This document shows, piece after piece, positions 6,933-42,150 of a stretch of 64,000 nucleotides of DNA. Both the position numbers and the translations under genes were made by a program. Within the stretch, counting starts at the first letter, position 1, and every line of letters begins with the position of its first letter. This stretch comes from Microcaldota archaeon (GTDB lineage: Archaea > Micrarchaeota > Micrarchaeia > Anstonellales > Bilamarchaeaceae), in contig JAHJCT010000011.1 of assembly GCA_018812715.1 (NCBI GenBank), positions 178,614 to 242,613 of the forward strand. Direction: 5' to 3'. The notes beneath the pieces were generated by a model that saw nothing but the letters and a program-made list of their open reading frames with translations, had not been told where the DNA came from and did not search any database.

Positions 6933-7012
6933 GAGGGTTTTCAAATATCCAAGGTAAAATATAAATCGGGATCGAAAACCCCAAGAAGAAATACTGAGAG
7001 GGTTTTCAAATG
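6933..7012 (+). promoter_or_regulatory. bistable leader element, copy A (before sugar nucleotidyltransferase)
   Basis: Two direct copies of GAGGGTTTTCAAAT start at 6933 and 6998 (65 bases apart); the second ends in the ATG at 7010. Between them, GGGATCGAAAACCCC (6968-6982) carries GAAAACCC, which can pair over 8 bp with GGGTTTTC of either copy. Pairing with the second copy would hide the ribosome-binding site; pairing with the first would free it. GGG/CCC within the middle segment can also form a small hairpin. Two more copies occur at 19851-19928 and 23397-23475. Confidence 0.6.
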
Positions 7013-7723
7013 AAAGCATTTATTTTAGCTGGTGGAGAAGGCACTAGATTAAGACCTTACACATATGCAACTCCAAAACCAATGCTTCCAATCGGAGGGA
7101 AGCCGATATTGCAATATGTTATAGAAAACATAAAAAGAGCGGGCATCAAAGATTATCTACTTACGGTTGGTTATCTTCACGAACAGATAACAAACTATTT
7201 TGGTAATGGTTCCAAATTCGATGTTCGTATTGAATATGCTATTGAAAATGAGAAGATGAATACTGCAGGTTCTGTGCTCCCACACGCCGACAAGGTCAAT
7301 AGCACATTCATTGTAGCTATGGGGGACCACATTACTAATATTGACATTAAGAAAATGATCGAACACCACAAAAAAACTGGTGCTATTGCCACCATTGCAT
7401 TGTTACAACATCAGATCCCTATCCAATTTGGTATGGCTGAAGTGGAAAATGGTCTTGTAACTGGTTTCAAAGAAAAACCCATCTTAAATCATCTTTACAA
7501 CGTTGCAATTTATGTTTTTGAACCAGAAATTTTCAAATATATCAAATCAAAAGAAGATTTTGCCAAGGATGTTTTTCCTAGAATGCTTAAAAAAGGAGAA
7601 AAAATAAGTGCATTTATCTTCGACGATGTTTGGTTTGATATAGGACAAGTAAGTGAATACGAGCGTTTAAATGAAGAATTTGAAACTTCTAAACTTCTGA
7701 AAGATCTAGGCTCTAAGAAATAA
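7010..7723 (+). CDS. sugar-phosphate nucleotidyltransferase
   Basis: Transfers a nucleotidyl group from an NTP to a sugar 1-phosphate. The signature LAGGEGTRLRPYTYATPKPM (residues 6-25) binds the NTP; MGDHIT near residue 104 supplies the metal-binding Asp, and FKEKP near 155 contacts the sugar. The protein has only the catalytic Rossmann-like domain (237 aa), without the C-terminal left-handed beta-helix. The exact sugar (glucose, mannose or other) is not decidable. Its ribosome-binding site is inside the leader element. It converges on the Alg7-like gene with an 18-base overlap. Confidence 0.85.
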   Translation: MKAFILAGGEGTRLRPYTYATPKPMLPIGGKPILQYVIENIKRAGIKDYLLTVGYLHEQITNYFGNGSKFDVRIEYAIENEKMNTAGSVLPHADKVNSTFIVAMGDHITNIDIKKMIEHHKKTGAIATIALLQHQIPIQFGMAEVENGLVTGFKEKPILNHLYNVAIYVFEPEIFKYIKSKEDFAKDVFPRMLKKGEKISAFIFDDVWFDIGQVSEYERLNEEFETSKLLKDLGSKK

Positions 7724-19216: not shown

Positions 19217-19851
19217 GCCGCTTTTTCTTTTTCAAGTCTTCTTTTAATCGCTTTAAGGCTTACAAAACTATCTCTTTCCATTTCTTCAAGCTGGAATGAA
19301 ATAAGTTTTTTCTGTTCTTCTAATCTGGGGATAAGAACATATTCAAGAGCATTAACACGCCTTTTGGTTTTTTCTATCTCTATGATTAGTCTTTTCATTG
19401 CAGTTTCTGTTTCTGCGAGTTTTATGACCATCTCCAAAATTTCGCTGAAATCTTCTACTGCAGTATCAATCTTTGCACTTGTTCCTGCAACAGAATAAGT
19501 TGGCGTATCAAGGAAATGCGTAATCTCCATCTCCGTATTAATGTGAGGTATTTTGACCCCCATAACATTTCTCACTTCTATATCAATATCTATCTCCTTT
19601 CGAAGATCAAGAGAAACTTTAGCTATTTCTTGAATTGGATGATAAGTCTCAGCAAGTGCAAGAGAACGATATCCTTCCACCATTTTAGCTGCTAGTTGGC
19701 CGCGCAAATCCTTTGCTTTTTTCAGGATTTTGAAGAACTCAAGAATAAGTGCATCACGCTTCTGTTTGAGCAATTTGTGTCCCTTTACAGCTAGTGCAAT
19801 GCGATCCTTTGTCTTTATGAGTTCCATCCTTGTTGGAATAATGTCGGCCAT
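19213..19851 (-). CDS. atpD: A-type ATP synthase subunit D (central stalk)
   Basis: A long antiparallel coiled-coil protein that forms the rotor axle with subunit F. The start IIPTRMELIKTKDRIALAVKG and the end RRVNALEYVLIPRLEEQKKLI are the subunit D signatures. ATG 19851 is used, not the upstream TTG. It is the last gene of the operon. Its ribosome-binding site lies in leader element copy B, the same element as before atpF, the other axle gene. Confidence 0.93.
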   Translation of the reverse strand: MADIIPTRMELIKTKDRIALAVKGHKLLKQKRDALILEFFKILKKAKDLRGQLAAKMVEGYRSLALAETYHPIQEIAKVSLDLRKEIDIDIEVRNVMGVKIPHINTEMEITHFLDTPTYSVAGTSAKIDTAVEDFSEILEMVIKLAETETAMKRLIIEIEKTKRRVNALEYVLIPRLEEQKKLISFQLEEMERDSFVSLKAIKRRLEKEKAA

Positions 19852-19928
19852 CAAAACCCTCTAATATCTTTTTCTTGGGGTTTTGGATCCCCATCTTAAG
19901 TATTTCCTAGATCTCATTCAAAACCCTC
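19851..19928 (-). promoter_or_regulatory. bistable leader element, copy B (between atpB and atpD)
   Basis: Reading the minus strand, GAGGGTTTTG occurs at 19928 and again at 19861, 67 bases apart; the first begins in the atpB stop codon and the second serves atpD. Between them lies GGGGATCCAAAACCCC. Here CAAAACCC pairs over 8 bp with GGGTTTTG of either copy. In copy A the last pair is C-G with the partner GAAAACCC, so both sides changed together. GGGG/CCCC can also form a local hairpin. Confidence 0.6.
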
Positions 19929-23084: not shown

Positions 23085-23399
23085 TTATTTTAAGTCAAAG
23101 CCCAAAGCCCGTTTTATCAGATTTTTTATCTCATCCCCTTCAACACTTTTACCTGATTGATCAGGGAGTGGAATTATAACCGGATAAGCTATGCTGCCAA
23201 GCTTTTTCTTTAACTTCCAATCTATACTATTGAGCATTTTTTCATTAGTAATTATGATACCGAATTCTTCTTTTTTTAGATATTCTTCAAGTTTTTGCTG
23301 ATAATGCTGCTCTTCGATCATTTCATAGTTTTCCAGTCCTGCAAGTCTGAAACCCATGACAAGCGGAGCATCGCCAAGCACTATAATTTTTGCCTTCAT
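23085..23399 (-). CDS. atpF: A-type ATP synthase subunit F (central stalk)
   Basis: A 104-aa CheY-like fold protein that sits on the rotor axle with subunit D. IIVLGDAPLVMGFRLAGLE at the start and FGIIITNEKMLNSIDW in the middle are family features. The stop codon overlaps the first possible ATG of atpA. Translation starts inside leader element copy C, the same element as before atpD. Confidence 0.92.
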   Translation of the reverse strand: MKAKIIVLGDAPLVMGFRLAGLENYEMIEEQHYQQKLEEYLKKEEFGIIITNEKMLNSIDWKLKKKLGSIAYPVIIPLPDQSGKSVEGDEIKNLIKRALGFDLK

Positions 23400-23475
23400 T
23401 TGAAAACCCTCAATATGTTTTTTCGTGGGGTTTTAGATCCCCATCTTAGATAATCATATATCATTTGAAACCCTC
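23397..23475 (-). promoter_or_regulatory. bistable leader element, copy C (between atpC and atpF)
   Basis: Reading the minus strand, GAGGGTTTCAAATG begins at 23475 inside the atpC stop codon, and GAGGGTTTTCAAATG begins at 23411 and ends in the atpF start (64 bases apart). GGGGATCTAAAACCCC lies between. AAAACCC pairs over 7 bp with the downstream copy and over 6 bp with the upstream copy. The middle segment and the following ACGAAAAAA are nearly identical to copy B. Confidence 0.6.
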
Positions 23476-35260: not shown

Positions 35261-37600
35261 TCACTCATCTTCGAGTTGAACTGCTCTTTTCTTATCAGAA
35301 AGGTTTTCAGTAAGCATTGCAAGCCTATCAAGCATTATTTTCTTCTCTGCACTTTGTACAATTGTTCTTGTTCTTGTTACTGCATCAGGATTAACTGACA
35401 TGCTAGTTGTGCCAAACTCAACCAATTTTTCTGCGAATTCAGGATACACCGAAGGTGCCTGGCCACAAAGTGAGGTTGTTACCCCGTATTTTTTGCATGT
35501 CGTGATTACTTGTTTTAATGCCCTCAAAACAGCTTCATTTCTTTCATCAAAGCCTTTTGCCATAGTTGCATTGTCCCTGTCTATACCAAGAATAAGCTGA
35601 GTAAGGTCATTTGTTCCTATGGAAACCCCATCGATACCCTCTTCACAAAACTGATCAATCAAAAATACAGTGCTTGGGACCTCAACCATAATCCAGAGCT
35701 TAAAGTCTCTTGTCCTATACAGACCAACCTCATGTAACGCCTGTTTGATTGCCCTCAATTCACCTATTCTTCTTATGAATGGTATCATCAGCCAAAGATT
35801 AGGCAAATGATATTCTTCCCTTACTTTTTTGATAGCTTCAAGTTCCATTTTGAAAGCATCTGGTTCATGCAAATACCTAGACGCCCCACGGTAGCCCATC
35901 ATTGGATTTTCTTCATGTGGTTCGTATTTTTCTCCACCTTCGAGATTTCTATATTCATTAGTTTTGAAATCCGTTGCCCTGTAAACTACTGGCCTTGGAT
36001 AAAATGCTGCTGCAAATTTTCTCAAATCTCCAGCAAGCCTTTCAATAAATTCTTTTCTTTTTCCTTCTTCAAGCATTTTCCTTGGATGTTGTCCAATATC
36101 CGCTATCATAAATTCTGCTCTTAGAAGACCAATTCCATCGCATGGAAGTTTTGATACTTTTTCTGCCTGGTCAACGTCTGCAAGATTTACGTATATCTTT
36201 GTCCCAGTAACTGGGGCAGCAGATGCTATTTGTGCAGCTCCTTCAGTCTTTGCAGCTGCTTCAGGTGCAGATACCAGACCTTCGTATACAAGACCGTGGC
36301 TTCCATCAACACTTACTTCCATCCCATCTTTCAGTTTTTTTGTGGCCTCACCAGTACCAACAATACATGGAACACCGAGTTCTCTACTTACTATTGCAGC
36401 ATGGCTTGTCATCCCCCCAGTATCAGTTATTATTGCTGCTGCCTTTTTCATTGCAGGAACAAAATCAGGAGTAGTCATTTCTGTTACAAGTACTTCGCCT
36501 TTTTCCATACTTTTGGTTTCTTTTGAAGTTTTGACAATCTTTACTTTTCCCATACCTATTCCAGGCGAAGCGCCGAGACCTTTAAGAATCACTTTTGCTT
36601 CACTAACATCTTTTTTTCCTTCCATTTTTTCTTCTCCTCCTTCCTTTAGTGTTGTTATTGGTCGTGATTGCACTATATACAGATTCCCCCTCTCAAATGC
36701 ATATTCTATATCCTGAGGGTAATTGTAATGATCCTCAATTTTTTTACAAATAGTTGCAAGGTCTTTTATCTCTAAATCACTCAGTTTTTGCTTACCTTGT
36801 GCCTCATCTTTTATCTCTGCTTTTCTGTTTTTCCCCTCAATTTTCACTATCATCCAAGTTTGCTTTACTACACTTTTATCAATAATCTTCATTGTGTTTT
36901 TATCTATTCTATAAGTGTCAGGAGTTACCTGTCCGCTTACTACTACTTCACCCAAGCCATATGCACCTTCTATAGACATGATATCTGGATCTTGATAAAG
37001 TGGATCAACTGTGAAAACTACGCCAGCCTTTTCACTCTGAACCATCATTTGCACAACAGCAGAGAGTCCTACTTTCATATGCTCAAACTTGTTTTCTGTT
37101 CTGTAAAATATTGCACGTGGTTCAAAGAGTGATGCCCAACATTCCTTAATTGCTTGTAATACTCCTTCTGTTTTATGTACATTCAGAAAAGTTGATTGCT
37201 GCCCTGCAAAACTTGCAGTTGGCAAATCTTCTGCTGTAGCACTACTTCTAACAGCAACATACACCTCTCTTCCAACCATTTCATTGAGTTCTTTATACGC
37301 TTTTACAATGTCATCATGAACATCTTTTGGCATATTGCCATCCATTATCAGCTTTTTGATTTTGTCAGACGCTTCTACTAAGGCATCATGATCATTAACA
37401 TCCAATTCTGAGAGTATAGTATTTATTGGTTCTCTCAAATTGTTTGCTTCAAGATGTTTATAATAAGCACCGCTCGTTGCTACAAAACCATTCGGTATAG
37501 GAAACCCATTTTGAAACATTTCCCCAAGATTAGCTCCCTTTCCACCTGCTTCAGCCAAACTTCCCCTACTAAGTTCTTTAAACCACATTATGTTTTTCAT
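35261..37600 (-). CDS. ppsA: phosphoenolpyruvate synthase
   Basis: Makes PEP from pyruvate, ATP and water, for gluconeogenesis. The N-terminal ATP-grasp domain runs to about residue 320 (GGKGANLGEMFQNGFPIPNGF, VAVRSSATAEDLPTASFAGQ); the phosphohistidine domain has GGMTSHAAIVSRELGVPC near residue 395; the C-terminal barrel has TNDLTQLILGIDRDN and SLCGQAPS. The 779-aa length is normal. The leader has GAGGG before the ATG and a strong inverted repeat at the presumed transcription start. Confidence 0.95.
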   Translation of the reverse strand: MKNIMWFKELSRGSLAEAGGKGANLGEMFQNGFPIPNGFVATSGAYYKHLEANNLREPINTILSELDVNDHDALVEASDKIKKLIMDGNMPKDVHDDIVKAYKELNEMVGREVYVAVRSSATAEDLPTASFAGQQSTFLNVHKTEGVLQAIKECWASLFEPRAIFYRTENKFEHMKVGLSAVVQMMVQSEKAGVVFTVDPLYQDPDIMSIEGAYGLGEVVVSGQVTPDTYRIDKNTMKIIDKSVVKQTWMIVKIEGKNRKAEIKDEAQGKQKLSDLEIKDLATICKKIEDHYNYPQDIEYAFERGNLYIVQSRPITTLKEGGEEKMEGKKDVSEAKVILKGLGASPGIGMGKVKIVKTSKETKSMEKGEVLVTEMTTPDFVPAMKKAAAIITDTGGMTSHAAIVSRELGVPCIVGTGEATKKLKDGMEVSVDGSHGLVYEGLVSAPEAAAKTEGAAQIASAAPVTGTKIYVNLADVDQAEKVSKLPCDGIGLLRAEFMIADIGQHPRKMLEEGKRKEFIERLAGDLRKFAAAFYPRPVVYRATDFKTNEYRNLEGGEKYEPHEENPMMGYRGASRYLHEPDAFKMELEAIKKVREEYHLPNLWLMIPFIRRIGELRAIKQALHEVGLYRTRDFKLWIMVEVPSTVFLIDQFCEEGIDGVSIGTNDLTQLILGIDRDNATMAKGFDERNEAVLRALKQVITTCKKYGVTTSLCGQAPSVYPEFAEKLVEFGTTSMSVNPDAVTRTRTIVQSAEKKIMLDRLAMLTENLSDKKRAVQLEDE

Positions 37601-37627
37601 ATCAAAACCCTCAGTTTGATTTAATTC

Positions 37628-37657
37628 TAGCTGGGTAATAATGAAAGTTCCCAGCTA
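37628..37657. promoter_or_regulatory. inverted repeat at the ppsA transcription start
   Basis: Perfect 8-bp arms TAGCTGGG (37628-37635) and CCCAGCTA (37650-37657) are 14 bases apart. They lie 28-57 bases before the ppsA ATG and about 25 bases downstream of the TATA box on that strand, so this is either a repressor site overlapping the start or a hairpin at the mRNA 5' end. Confidence 0.5.
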
Positions 37658-37675
37658 CGCTTACATATCATATAT

Positions 37676-39149: not shown

Positions 39150-42100
39150 TTGTCATATGAATTAGGCCATTAGTAACGGCTAGCTGAAACGCTCGGCGAA
39201 CCTAACGTCTTACACTACCGTTCTATCAAACGGATCTGTTATCCGCGGCATTTGTTTCCTCGTTTTAAGGGTTGCTTCGACCTTAGATGCTTTCAGGTCT
39301 TATCAACGCAGCGCGTAGCTGCCCGGCAATGCAAATCACAACCGGTAGACCAGTGGCGCCGGCCCCCCGTTCCTCTCGTACTCAAGGGGCCTTACTCTCA
39401 AGAAACAACACTCCTAAAAGATACTACCGTACTGTCTCGCGACGTACTGAACCCAGCTCATGTGGGGTTTTAATGGATGAACAACCCAACCCTTGGTCGC
39501 TCCTACACGACCAGGATACCCCAAGCCGACAGCGATGTACCAAACCGCGGGGTCGATACGTACGCGACGTAGTCTTATAGTTAAAAGAAACTCAGACTAT
39601 CGCCGCAGTGTACTCTCGCCCGCGACGAGCCTGTTACCTCCAGGGTAGCTTGTCTGACAGCTTGAATCCTCAACAACGGGATTTCAAGGTTCGTTAAGCC
39701 CGACTTTCGTCTCTGCGTTTCACGCTTTTCGAAACACAGTCAGCCCTGCATTTGTCTTTAACCCTCTATTTCCGATTTCTGACCGGAATGAGCAGAGCAT
39801 TGGGCGCCCTTGTTTCCTTATCGAGGGCGTACCGCCCCAGCCAAACTATCTACCTGACGATGTCCCCTTGCGGGTAAGCAATATAAAATCTATTAAGTGG
39901 TGTAACATTGTCGCCTCCACGTATCCCGGAAGATACGCTTCGAAAGCTCCCACTTACTCTTGGTAATAAATCTCATATCACAACATCAGGCTATAGTAAA
40001 GCTCCATGGAGTCTTCGTTTCCCTTTAGGAGTCCCCGGCATCTTCACCGGGCAGTGAGTTCACCAGGTCCCAGATAGGGACAGTGGGAGTGACGTTACGT
40101 CATTCATGCAAGCCGCCAATTAAGCGGCGAGGTATTACGCTACCTTAAGAGGGTCAGAGTTACCCCCGCTCTTTACCAGCCCTTCTTCAGATTGAAATCC
40201 GCTTTCAGGTACTGGCAGTGAGCAGACGTCAGCCATCATACTCATCCTTTCGGATCTGCGATGACCTGTGTTTTTGGTAAACAGTCGCACTCCCCTTGTT
40301 ACTGAGACCACAACATTACTCATGCTATGGCGCCCCTTCTTGCAAACTTACAGGGCTATCTTGCCGAGTTCCCTTACCTGGGTTATCCTGTCACACCTTA
40401 GCCTTCTAAGCTAGAGCACCTCTCAGTGGAAACTTTTTTGATGAAACTTTTTTCTAAAAAGTTTCCTGTACTGGTTCTAGGTACGAATACAAAGGATCGT
40501 TCCACTCTCACTTTTCATGGGTCCCTGGATTCAATGGGATTACCCCTACGGCTTTCATCTGCTTCTCCTCACAATGAGACTCGACAGACCTACTGCCTTC
40601 AGACGTCCGAAGACGCCCCACTTATCCAAAAACGTCAGAGAATGGCTTGCATTGCTGCACCTACCTCTGTAGGACCGGAATATTAACCGGTTTCCCTAAT
40701 TTCGGCTCTTTGGAATTACCGCGAGCCTTAGGATCGCCTAACCCTCAGCTGAAGAACGTGGCTGAGGAAACCTTGCTCTATAAGGTGTCCGGAATTCTCA
40801 TCCGGATATGCTGCTACTAACACCAGGATATTCATAACAGGCCGCTCCACATGATCTCACGACCATGCTTCTAAGCAACCCGTTCGCCCCCTTAATCACA
40901 CGCTTTTGGCGCTGGTAAGGTATCGGAAGCTGACTTAGCCCCGTGAATTTTCAGAAACTGCGCTCTCGGTGGGTCCGCTATTACGCGTTGTTTGAAGGAT
41001 GGCTGCTTCTGAGCCTACCTCCCCACTGTTTTTGAGAGGAGTTTCCTTTACAGATTAACACTTAGTCAGCATTTAGGGCCCTTAACCTTACGTACGGTCG
41101 TTCCCGTAAACGATACCAGACTTACTCGGATACCGCCACTGCCTCCATCTACGAAGATATAGTATTCGGAGTTTGAGAAGATGGCGATTCCTTTCGGAAC
41201 CAATCCACCTAATCAGTGCTCTACCCCTATATCCTTCTCCGGAGACGCTGTGCTGAGACACACTTCAGGGGGAACTCGCTATTGCCGTGTTCGACAGGAC
41301 TATCACCCCTACACCCAAGTCACCTAAGGGGAATATACCACCACTAGTTGCGGGCCTCCATCAACCGTCAGGTTGACTTCGCCCTGCTCAGGCGTAGATC
41401 ACAACGGCTTCGGGTCTAAACGGTGTGACTGATCGCCAGTTACGACGACACCCCTCACGTATTGCTACGCTGCGGGTACTTGCTTTCGCTTCGAATCTCA
41501 TCTCGCCACACCAAATAACTCCCTGGCTCTTGCTTCGAGAAGAAAGACAGAACACTGCTTAACTTATGTCGCTCCTCCAGTCTCCCAAAGTCGCTTCCAT
41601 AAGCCTACGCTTTCATGCCCTGTCCTGCTGTAACCATCTAGTTTCAGGATCTTTTCACACTCGTCCCCGAGTGCTTTTCAACTTTCGCTCGCGCTACTGC
41701 TTCGCTATCGGTCTTGCACCTCATATTTAGATTTGGATGTTGTTACACCCATATTCATGCCCCCTACCCAGAGGACACTACTCTTCATGGATCGCTCCTT
41801 TCAACTTCACCTACGAGACTGTTACTCGCTATGGTACCGCTTTCCATCGGACTTCGGCTCATAAAAAGGATGCTCCCCGCCACATCTACCAATATATTAC
41901 TATACTGGAATTCAGCTTGATCTATTCGGCTTTCACTCGCTGTTACTAACCGAATCTCAATTGATTTCTTTTCCACCCCGTACTAAGATGCTTCATTTCT
42001 GGGGGTTCTTACGCATTACTGCGCACCGCCAAACCCTTGGATCAAAGACTGCGTGCGTCTACCCAAGGCGTTTCGCCGCTTGCCGCGTGGCCGTGCGGGC

Positions 42101-42150
42101 ACAAGCCAAGCCATCCACTAAATGGCGTAGTATAAACAGCATATGACATA
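39150..42150 (-). rRNA. rrl: 23S ribosomal RNA
   Basis: The minus strand carries conserved LSU landmarks: AGTGGATGGCTTGGC near the 5' end (about 42115), AAGGGAACTCGGCAAGATAG (about 40357-40376), and the sarcin-ricin loop AGTACGAGAGGAACG near 39366-39380. Terminal helix 1 can form between TGTCATATG (42148-42140) and CATATGACA (39159-39151), which sets the mature ends to within about 15 bases. The length near 3.0 kb leaves no room for a large intron. No 16S, 5S or tRNA is next to it, and a promoter lies 140 bases upstream. Confidence 0.95.
40428..40466 (-). repeat. AT-rich hairpin expansion within 23S rRNA
   Basis: GGAAACTTTTT (40428-40438) and AAAAAGTTTCC (40456-40466) are perfect 11-bp inverted arms, with a further GAAACTTTTTTC between them. 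The segment replaces the tip of a helix upstream of the conserved AAGGGAACTCGGCAAG segment, about domain III/IV. It is far more AT-rich than the rest of the rRNA. Confidence 0.6.

Follow-up and report, generated by a model that had tools for sequence, protein, structure and literature searches.

The window, a 64,000-nucleotide stretch of contig JAHJCT010000011.1 from a Microcaldota archaeon, carries three copies of a short element, each placed directly before a protein-coding gene (Table 1). At copy A, on the plus strand before a nucleotidyltransferase gene, the 14-mer GAGGGTTTTCAAAT occurs exactly at 6933-6946 and again at 6998-7011, with GAAAACCCC between the two. An earlier note on this DNA had described this layout, including a second 14-mer with the ribosome-binding site (Shine-Dalgarno sequence, SD) and the start codon of the nucleotidyltransferase gene, and had placed the same element at two ATP synthase positions on the other strand. 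Both descriptions are confirmed. A third exact 14-mer lies at 23398-23411 (-), and related elements precede the minus-strand genes for ATP-synt_F (23399) and ATP-synt_D (19851). Repeat comparison within the window aligns copies A, B and C over blocks of 42-64 nt that are 78-83% alike.

Table 1. Features of the three element copies in the window. N2 stands beside AAAACC in the anti-SD, N' after GGTTTT in SD2.
Copy	Feature	Coordinates	Strand	Remark
A	SD1, first GAGGGTTTTCAAAT	6933..6946	+	ATA follows; in other copies this is the upstream-ORF ATG
A	Anti-SD GAAAACCCC (6974-6982) after a weak 5' G strand and loop	6966..6982	+	
A	SD2 GAGGGTTTTCAA and gene ATG (7010-7012)	6998..7012	+	N2=G pairs N'=C
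A	Host gene, nucleotidyltransferase, NTP_transferase (PF00483)	7010..7723	+	Pfam E 7.8e-50
B	SD1 GAGGGTTTCAA	23465..23475	-	occupies the native atpF SD position
B	Upstream ORF MIYDYLRWGSKTPRKNILRVFK	23396..23464	-	its TGA overlaps the atpF ATG
B	Hairpin CTAAGATGGGG-ATCTAAAA-CCCC, anti-SD AAAACCCC	23427..23449	-	predicted probability of hairpin state (H) 0.99
B	SD2 and ATG of ATP synthase subunit F (gene 23085-23399)	23397..23411	-	Pfam
C	SD1 GAGGGTTTTG	19919..19928	-	overlaps the ATP synthase B stop codon
C	Upstream ORF MRSRKYLRWGSKTPRKRY	19861..19917	-	stop TAG immediately 5' of SD2
C	AAGATGGGGATCCAAAACCCC: GGGG/CCCC hairpin and anti-SD CAAAACCCC	19877..19897	-	N2=C pairs N'=G
C	SD2 GAGGGTTTTG and ATG (19851-19849) of ATP synthase subunit D	19849..19861	-	Pfam

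In copy A the frame that starts at ATA is open (ISKVKYKSGSKTPRRNTERVFK) as far as a TGA overlapping the gene ATG. Its hairpin consists of GGG/CCC only, P1 is not formed, and the predicted MFE structure pairs SD1 with the anti-SD. Because an ATA stands in place of the upstream ATG and the hairpin is weak, copy A looks like a degenerate member of its family. Elsewhere on the minus strand of the window, ppsA (37590-37660) has an SD of the family type (GAGGGTTTTGATATG) without an anti-SD, and a different hairpin, TAGCTGGG..CCCAGCTA, lies upstream; three relatives carry the element at ppsA. A complete archaeal 23S rRNA gene occupies 39150-42142 (-).

Family size, distribution and consensus

The three copies described by the earlier note exist, as members of a larger family. 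Covariance-model searches find about 10 element loci in the window genome, and the family comprises about 50 copies in 8 of the 17 genomes of the Micrarchaeota genus Ca. Bilamarchaeum (GTDB g__CAILMU01); all genomes compared, designated here by G numbers, are MAGs. The first covariance model, built from seven copies, matched more loci in six other genus genomes, and a second model brought in further copies. The exact 14-mer occurs five times in the 1.27-Mb window genome (G000), against zero for a reversed control, and a strict core pattern matched 15 stretches among 84,980 species genomes, all of this lineage (Micrarchaeota/archaeal MAGs); together these results exclude a chance repeat. A relaxed pattern was positive in 8 of 17 genus genomes and gave scattered single matches among the other 284 genomes of the class. 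Outside the genus, covariance-model matches came only at E about 0.01-0.1, alongside scattered pattern matches, none of them convincing, and the few such loci that were read (L123, L132-L137) lacked an SD-ATG context. The search of related archaeal genomes that the earlier note had proposed yields more copies, the convincing ones all within the genus.

No copy reaches the gathering threshold of any model in Rfam release 15, all riboswitches included (best sub-threshold E 3.2), which agrees with the view that no named RNA family has this layout. The strict pattern has no match in IMG/VR viral contigs, and a viral origin was rejected. A CRISPR array, suspected for a 65-nt spacing at contig ends, was dropped after the sequence was read. 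A de novo scan for anti-SDs over about 89% of the window genome returned little beyond the element loci; a small excess at 9-11 nt represents mostly unrelated inverted repeats.

The consensus reads GAUGGGGAU-N1N2-AAAACCCC - 13-16 nt - GGAGGGUUUU-N' - 1-4 nt - AUG. Type 2 (GACGGAUNNAAAACCGAC...GUGGGUUUU), type 3 (GGUGGAGUGAAAGAACCACC...GGAGGUUCUUU) and a variant in G010 (AAAACCUCC...GGAGGUUUU) depart from it. The constancy of GGAT, AAAACC and GGTTTT is partly by construction, because the search patterns required these letters; departures from them are seen in L002 (AACC), L196 (CG replaces AU) and L195. The loop AUNNAAAA is near-constant and is replaced in L196 and L195. Copies at scpB (in two species), ppsA, purD, a ferredoxin gene and FEN1 have an extra two-hairpin loop arm. 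Such arms, AUGUC-hp-GAGCAUGCUC or GACAGUC-hp-GACAU with AT on either side, are found in the element loop at L001:1418-1475, L097, L190, L191, L193 and L197, where the layout is kept and the sequences vary between species. At six loci of G014 (L088, L091, L092, L155, L156, L192) short hairpins AAAGAACC..GGTTCTTT are repeated just 5' of the elements; their letters are those of the type 3 anti-SD/SD pair.

Covariation of two alternative helices

N2 and N' are complementary in 36 of the 38 distinct copies (21 G-C, 13 C-G, 2 A-U), counts that overstate the number of independent events since copies spread by duplication. None of 100,000 shuffles gave equally good pairing, also when letters were shuffled within genomes. 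N1, next to N2, pairs in only 6 copies. In a 20-row alignment, 96.3% of the cells of the anti-SD:SD2 helix are paired, with two covarying pairs; pair 17-51 of this helix is GC in 9 rows, CG in 8 and AU in 2. Independent compensation is found in G010 (AAAACCTCC/GGAGGTTTT) and in subtype 3 of the window genome (AAAGAACC/GGTTCTTT). The GGGG/CCCC hairpin covaries as well, with pair 11-24 formed in 20 of 20 rows (GC 14, CG 5, GU 1). Columns 22-24 belong to both helices, which are mutually exclusive there. Judged by covariation, both the anti-SD:SD pairing and the mutually exclusive alternative helix (pair 11-24) are under selection. Loss of the element with no covariation, the outcome that the earlier note had set against its own proposal, is the opposite of what the genomes display; covariation is strong.

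The earlier note had proposed a bistable element in which the central sequence pairs with either of the two flanking copies. Mutually exclusive pairing with SD2 stands, and the part given to the first copy does not. An SD1-like sequence is present in 23 of 38 copies, and many lack a first copy. Where a clear GGGTTTTN SD1 differs from SD2 at its last base, the anti-SD matches SD2 in 4 of 4 copies and SD1 in none; a looser pattern gives a match to SD2 in 8 of 8. On the copies whose two SDs differ, SD1 was rejected as the alternative partner, which by the alignment is the 5' GGGG. The GGGG/CCCC hairpin and an N2AAAA/UUUUN' helix could combine as a pseudoknot with loop AUN, and the covariation fits a simple anti-SD hairpin too. 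Predicted ensembles are mixed, with the anti-SD:SD2 state (T) above 0.5 in 10 of 36 copies and the hairpin state (H) above 0.5 in 14 of 36, so either the default state varies between copies or the predictions are poor; they were not relied on for conclusions.

Insertion at start codons and the upstream ORF

Two features of the family were missed in the first reading: an upstream ORF that runs through the element, and dispersing insertion at start codons. The second is seen by comparing filled sites with empty ones in related genomes. The ribosomal protein S14 site in G013 is empty and reads GTCGAGTGATATTT-ATGAAGCTG; G012 has the same left flank, then ATGAAGAC and, 59 bp on, GCGGGTTTTGCTT-ATGAAGCTG, which is a 59-bp insert at that ATG. 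The S14 sites of G008, G009 and G015 are empty also. The SerRS site is empty in G013 (TGAAGTGATATCATG), and in G012 the element lies between two copies of TTGAAGTGAT. The atpF site that copy B fills in the window is empty in G005 (GTATGAAGGCC) and in G013 (CATGAAGGTTTTGAC-ATG, CATGAAGGTTTTGACATG). Further pairs of empty and filled sites are found at ppsA (G013 and G012; G009 and G015), at the L14 and MKGQYF genes (G013 and G012), and at U1, a gene of no assigned function, between G004 and its orthologues. These sequence comparisons establish insertion at start codons.

In the cases just listed, the upstream ORF takes over the native SD and start codon. Two sites in G012 differ: at ppsA the SD is retained with no ATG after it, and at L11 the native SD is replaced and there is no ATG-started ORF. 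Dispersal is evident in copies at unlinked genes of one genome, which are up to 100% identical while their flanks stay at background identity, and in tandem arrays at rpoL in G000 and Nop10 in G014. Most sites are filled in one species only among the several compared, and these many single-species sites favour spread. Every detected copy stands before a gene and in the same orientation, and in 36 of 38 a start codon lies no more than about 12 nt from SD2; no neutral intergenic copies are among them.

The ends of the insert offer no constant signature. Apparent repeats there may be ATGA, ATGAAG, TTGAAGTGAT or an entire SD-ATG, and their length is not constant. Inspection of copies and empty sites revealed no terminal inverted repeats spanning the element; only an internal stretch pairs with the right end. 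No exon-exon helix is evident for an archaeal bulge-helix-bulge intron, whose excision would rejoin the native SD to the gene. Three sites, L347 (G015), L267 (G011) and L269 (G006), are footprint-like, with an SD2-like GAGGGTTTTGA before the gene and no anti-SD, and look as if the element had been lost by deletion.

An ATG is found at -80..-51 in 25 of 36 copies and opens an upstream ORF of 11-30 codons; the remaining 11 have no ATG-started upstream ORF, some having TTG or GTG. In 19 of 36 copies an SD match of 4 nt or more precedes the upstream ATG, as compared with 3 of 40 control genes and 10% of random positions. The ORF crosses the anti-SD in 25 of 25 cases, as compared with 9 of 17 control genes and 67% of SD-ATGs at random positions. 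It ends within -20..+1 in 22 of 25, and in 13 of these ORFs the closing TGA shares bases with the gene ATG at +1 (AUGA). The upstream ORFs fall in all three reading frames and their peptides are unrelated (GSKTP, GIENP, GDRKP); none uses a frame that the element closes with a stop. Since the frame varies between copies, what appears to be kept is openness to ribosomes and not a peptide.

Host genes were assigned by Pfam. They encode L11 (two), L14, S14, L22, L39e, aRF1, SerRS and a class-I tRNA synthetase, judged from its N-terminus to be IleRS. Further ones encode Rpo11 (two), Nop10 and an RRP4-like exosome subunit. The others encode NTP transferase (two), ATP synthase F and D, PpsA (three), a PDH E1-beta-like protein, 2-oxoacid:ferredoxin oxidoreductase, ferredoxin, EPSP synthase, aminotransferase (two), dCTP deaminase, PurD, FEN1, a cytidylate-kinase-like protein, an HD phosphohydrolase, ScpB (two) and a VTT-domain protein. 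The genes for L11, RpoL, ScpB, PpsA and aminotransferase, and U1, are filled in different species, sometimes by different subtypes, which favours some benefit or very old copies. A gene for an 80-aa protein without Pfam match (L220:7789-8028; L261-L277) is present in all 17 of 17 genus genomes, most of which have a conserved operator-like palindrome, TTAGTATATAC...GTATATACTTAGG, upstream of it; in two species it carries the element, in different subtypes. At L101:948-1550 (-), the element forms an in-frame fusion to the N-terminus of a pilin-like protein (MNSKNIQDGEGKPHFEKQKRVFKGQAVMEYLITYG).

A candidate translational relay

We think it reasonably probable that the element is a dispersing cassette that relays translation, and so nature's counterpart of the synthetic bicistronic design. 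According to this model, a mobile or copied insert, some 55-80 nt in length and more where extra arms are present, would be added at a gene's start codon, after which the gene's own SD and AUG would start a short upstream ORF. The insert would bring a new ribosome-binding site, SD2 (GGAGGGUUUUN'), beside the gene AUG, and an anti-SD (N-AAAACCC) that in simple copies would lie 25-45 nt 5' of that AUG. With the anti-SD paired to SD2, in state T, the gene would be off; in state H the anti-SD would be held in the GGGG/CCCC hairpin. A ribosome that translates the upstream ORF would displace the anti-SD, finish at the gene AUG or beside it and re-initiate from SD2. The insert would in this way relay the native initiation rate to the gene, while the anti-SD would otherwise keep SD2 quiet. 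Translation of the host gene is thus probably passed on via the upstream mini-gene; we infer translation of the upstream ORF, the coupling of termination to reinitiation, and the off state of the gene in T. More tentatively, and with belief falling somewhat short of even, we suggest a mobile element that targets the translation start, made tolerable by its gated ribosome-binding site and relay ORF, which would leave every host gene under its native SD.

A genuine RNA switch with a regulatory role, resembling a riboswitch or responding to a protein, in which T and H or a pseudoknot would sense a ligand, a protein or temperature for a regulon while the upstream ORFs were secondary, would account for the covariation of both mutually exclusive helices, for the nearly constant loop, for the extra two-hairpin arm of several copies and for the recurrence of the same host genes in different species, sometimes with other subtypes. 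We nevertheless regard it as unlikely. The Pfam-assigned host genes have no coherence as a one-metabolite regulon, ranging over ribosomal proteins, synthetases (SerRS, IleRS), ATPase, PpsA, ScpB, EPSP synthase, ferredoxin, FEN1 and others; the predominance of sites filled in a single species also counts against a switch, as does the presence of other letters in place of AU in L196 and subtype 3, the search patterns having favoured AU. The analysis gave no evidence of any ligand or signal.

A selfish miniature repeat would also produce dispersal, tandem arrays and clean empty sites, a repeat whose inverted repeat (NAAAACC/GGTTTTN') would serve transposition at the DNA level with no relay selected; copies at start codons would survive because they bring an SD. 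IS200/IS605 elements use guide-cleavage pairing, and the complementary pair near the right end of the element resembles it. This reading, which we hold to be quite improbable, sits poorly with the fixed orientation and start-codon position of the detected copies, the lack of neutral intergenic ones among them, and the excess of open upstream ORFs. The Y1 transposase (PF01797) is present in only 4 of 17 genus genomes and is missing from copy-rich G012 (81% complete), and among the 17 it shows no clear link to copies as a driver. That what is conserved is a small encoded peptide (WGSKTPLRK), the nucleotide repeats merely mirroring its coding, we consider very improbable: copies B and C, L010, L088-L090 and L093 do share LRWGSKTP-like peptides with synonymous TCN changes, but the reading was rejected because other copies (L095, L099, L102, L103, L104) use different frames or have TAG or TAA there, and it leaves the complementarity to SD2 unexplained.

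The relay model has parallels in several known systems. The synthetic bicistronic design (BCD), as PMC10367133 describes it from Mutalik 2013, has a short fore-cistron with its own SD1, an SD2 inside the end of that cistron and a stop/start overlap, and the ribosome on the fore-cistron opens structure around SD2. As compared with BCD so described, the element is natural and archaeal, is dispersed in about 50 copies at native start codons, and has a dedicated covarying anti-SD. In archaea, coupling by termination and reinitiation at ATGA overlaps is an established process (Nat Commun 2019, PMC6728339). The AUGA overlap is common to both, and re-initiation is presumed for the element; there the coupling joins real genes, whereas here an inserted element makes the overlap and would gate SD2. 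The SD-sequestering riboswitches and RNA thermometers of Rfam share the anti-SD pairing and the alternative hairpin; the element differs in its lack of an Rfam match or known ligand, its incoherent regulon and an upstream ORF that is read through. Translational attenuators of the ermC/cat type combine a leader ORF with a sequestered gene SD, as the element does. Unlike them it has no conserved stall peptide (three frames are used), has unrelated targets and spreads by insertion.

Small dispersed repeats are usually considered intergenic or, rarely, within coding sequence. Prokaryotic MITEs, REP/BIME, ERIC and Rickettsia palindromic elements (PMC10969869, PMC2229807, PMC3733652) are small dispersed repeats that form an RNA hairpin once transcribed. 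In contrast to these repeats, the element has no unit-spanning terminal inverted repeats, keeps a fixed orientation, targets the translation start and supplies an SD; and whereas the Rickettsia element lies in frame within coding sequence, this one lies at start codons, with an in-frame fusion only at L101. In the library searched, no paper treats Micrarchaeota together with riboswitches or with Shine-Dalgarno sequences. The ingredients are known singly (anti-SD hairpin, leader ORF, AUGA coupling, dispersed repeat), and we could not match their combination to any known kind.

If the relay model is true, the family would represent a new way of inserting DNA without breaking a gene, repeated at the start codons of essential genes such as those for rpoL, S14, L14, aRF1, SerRS and ATP synthase, and a natural counterpart of bicistronic design. 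Its roughly 50 natural replicates, with empty-site controls, make anti-SD pairing, the frame of the upstream ORF and coupling directly testable, and a covariance model is ready for what would be a new RNA family in DPANN archaea.
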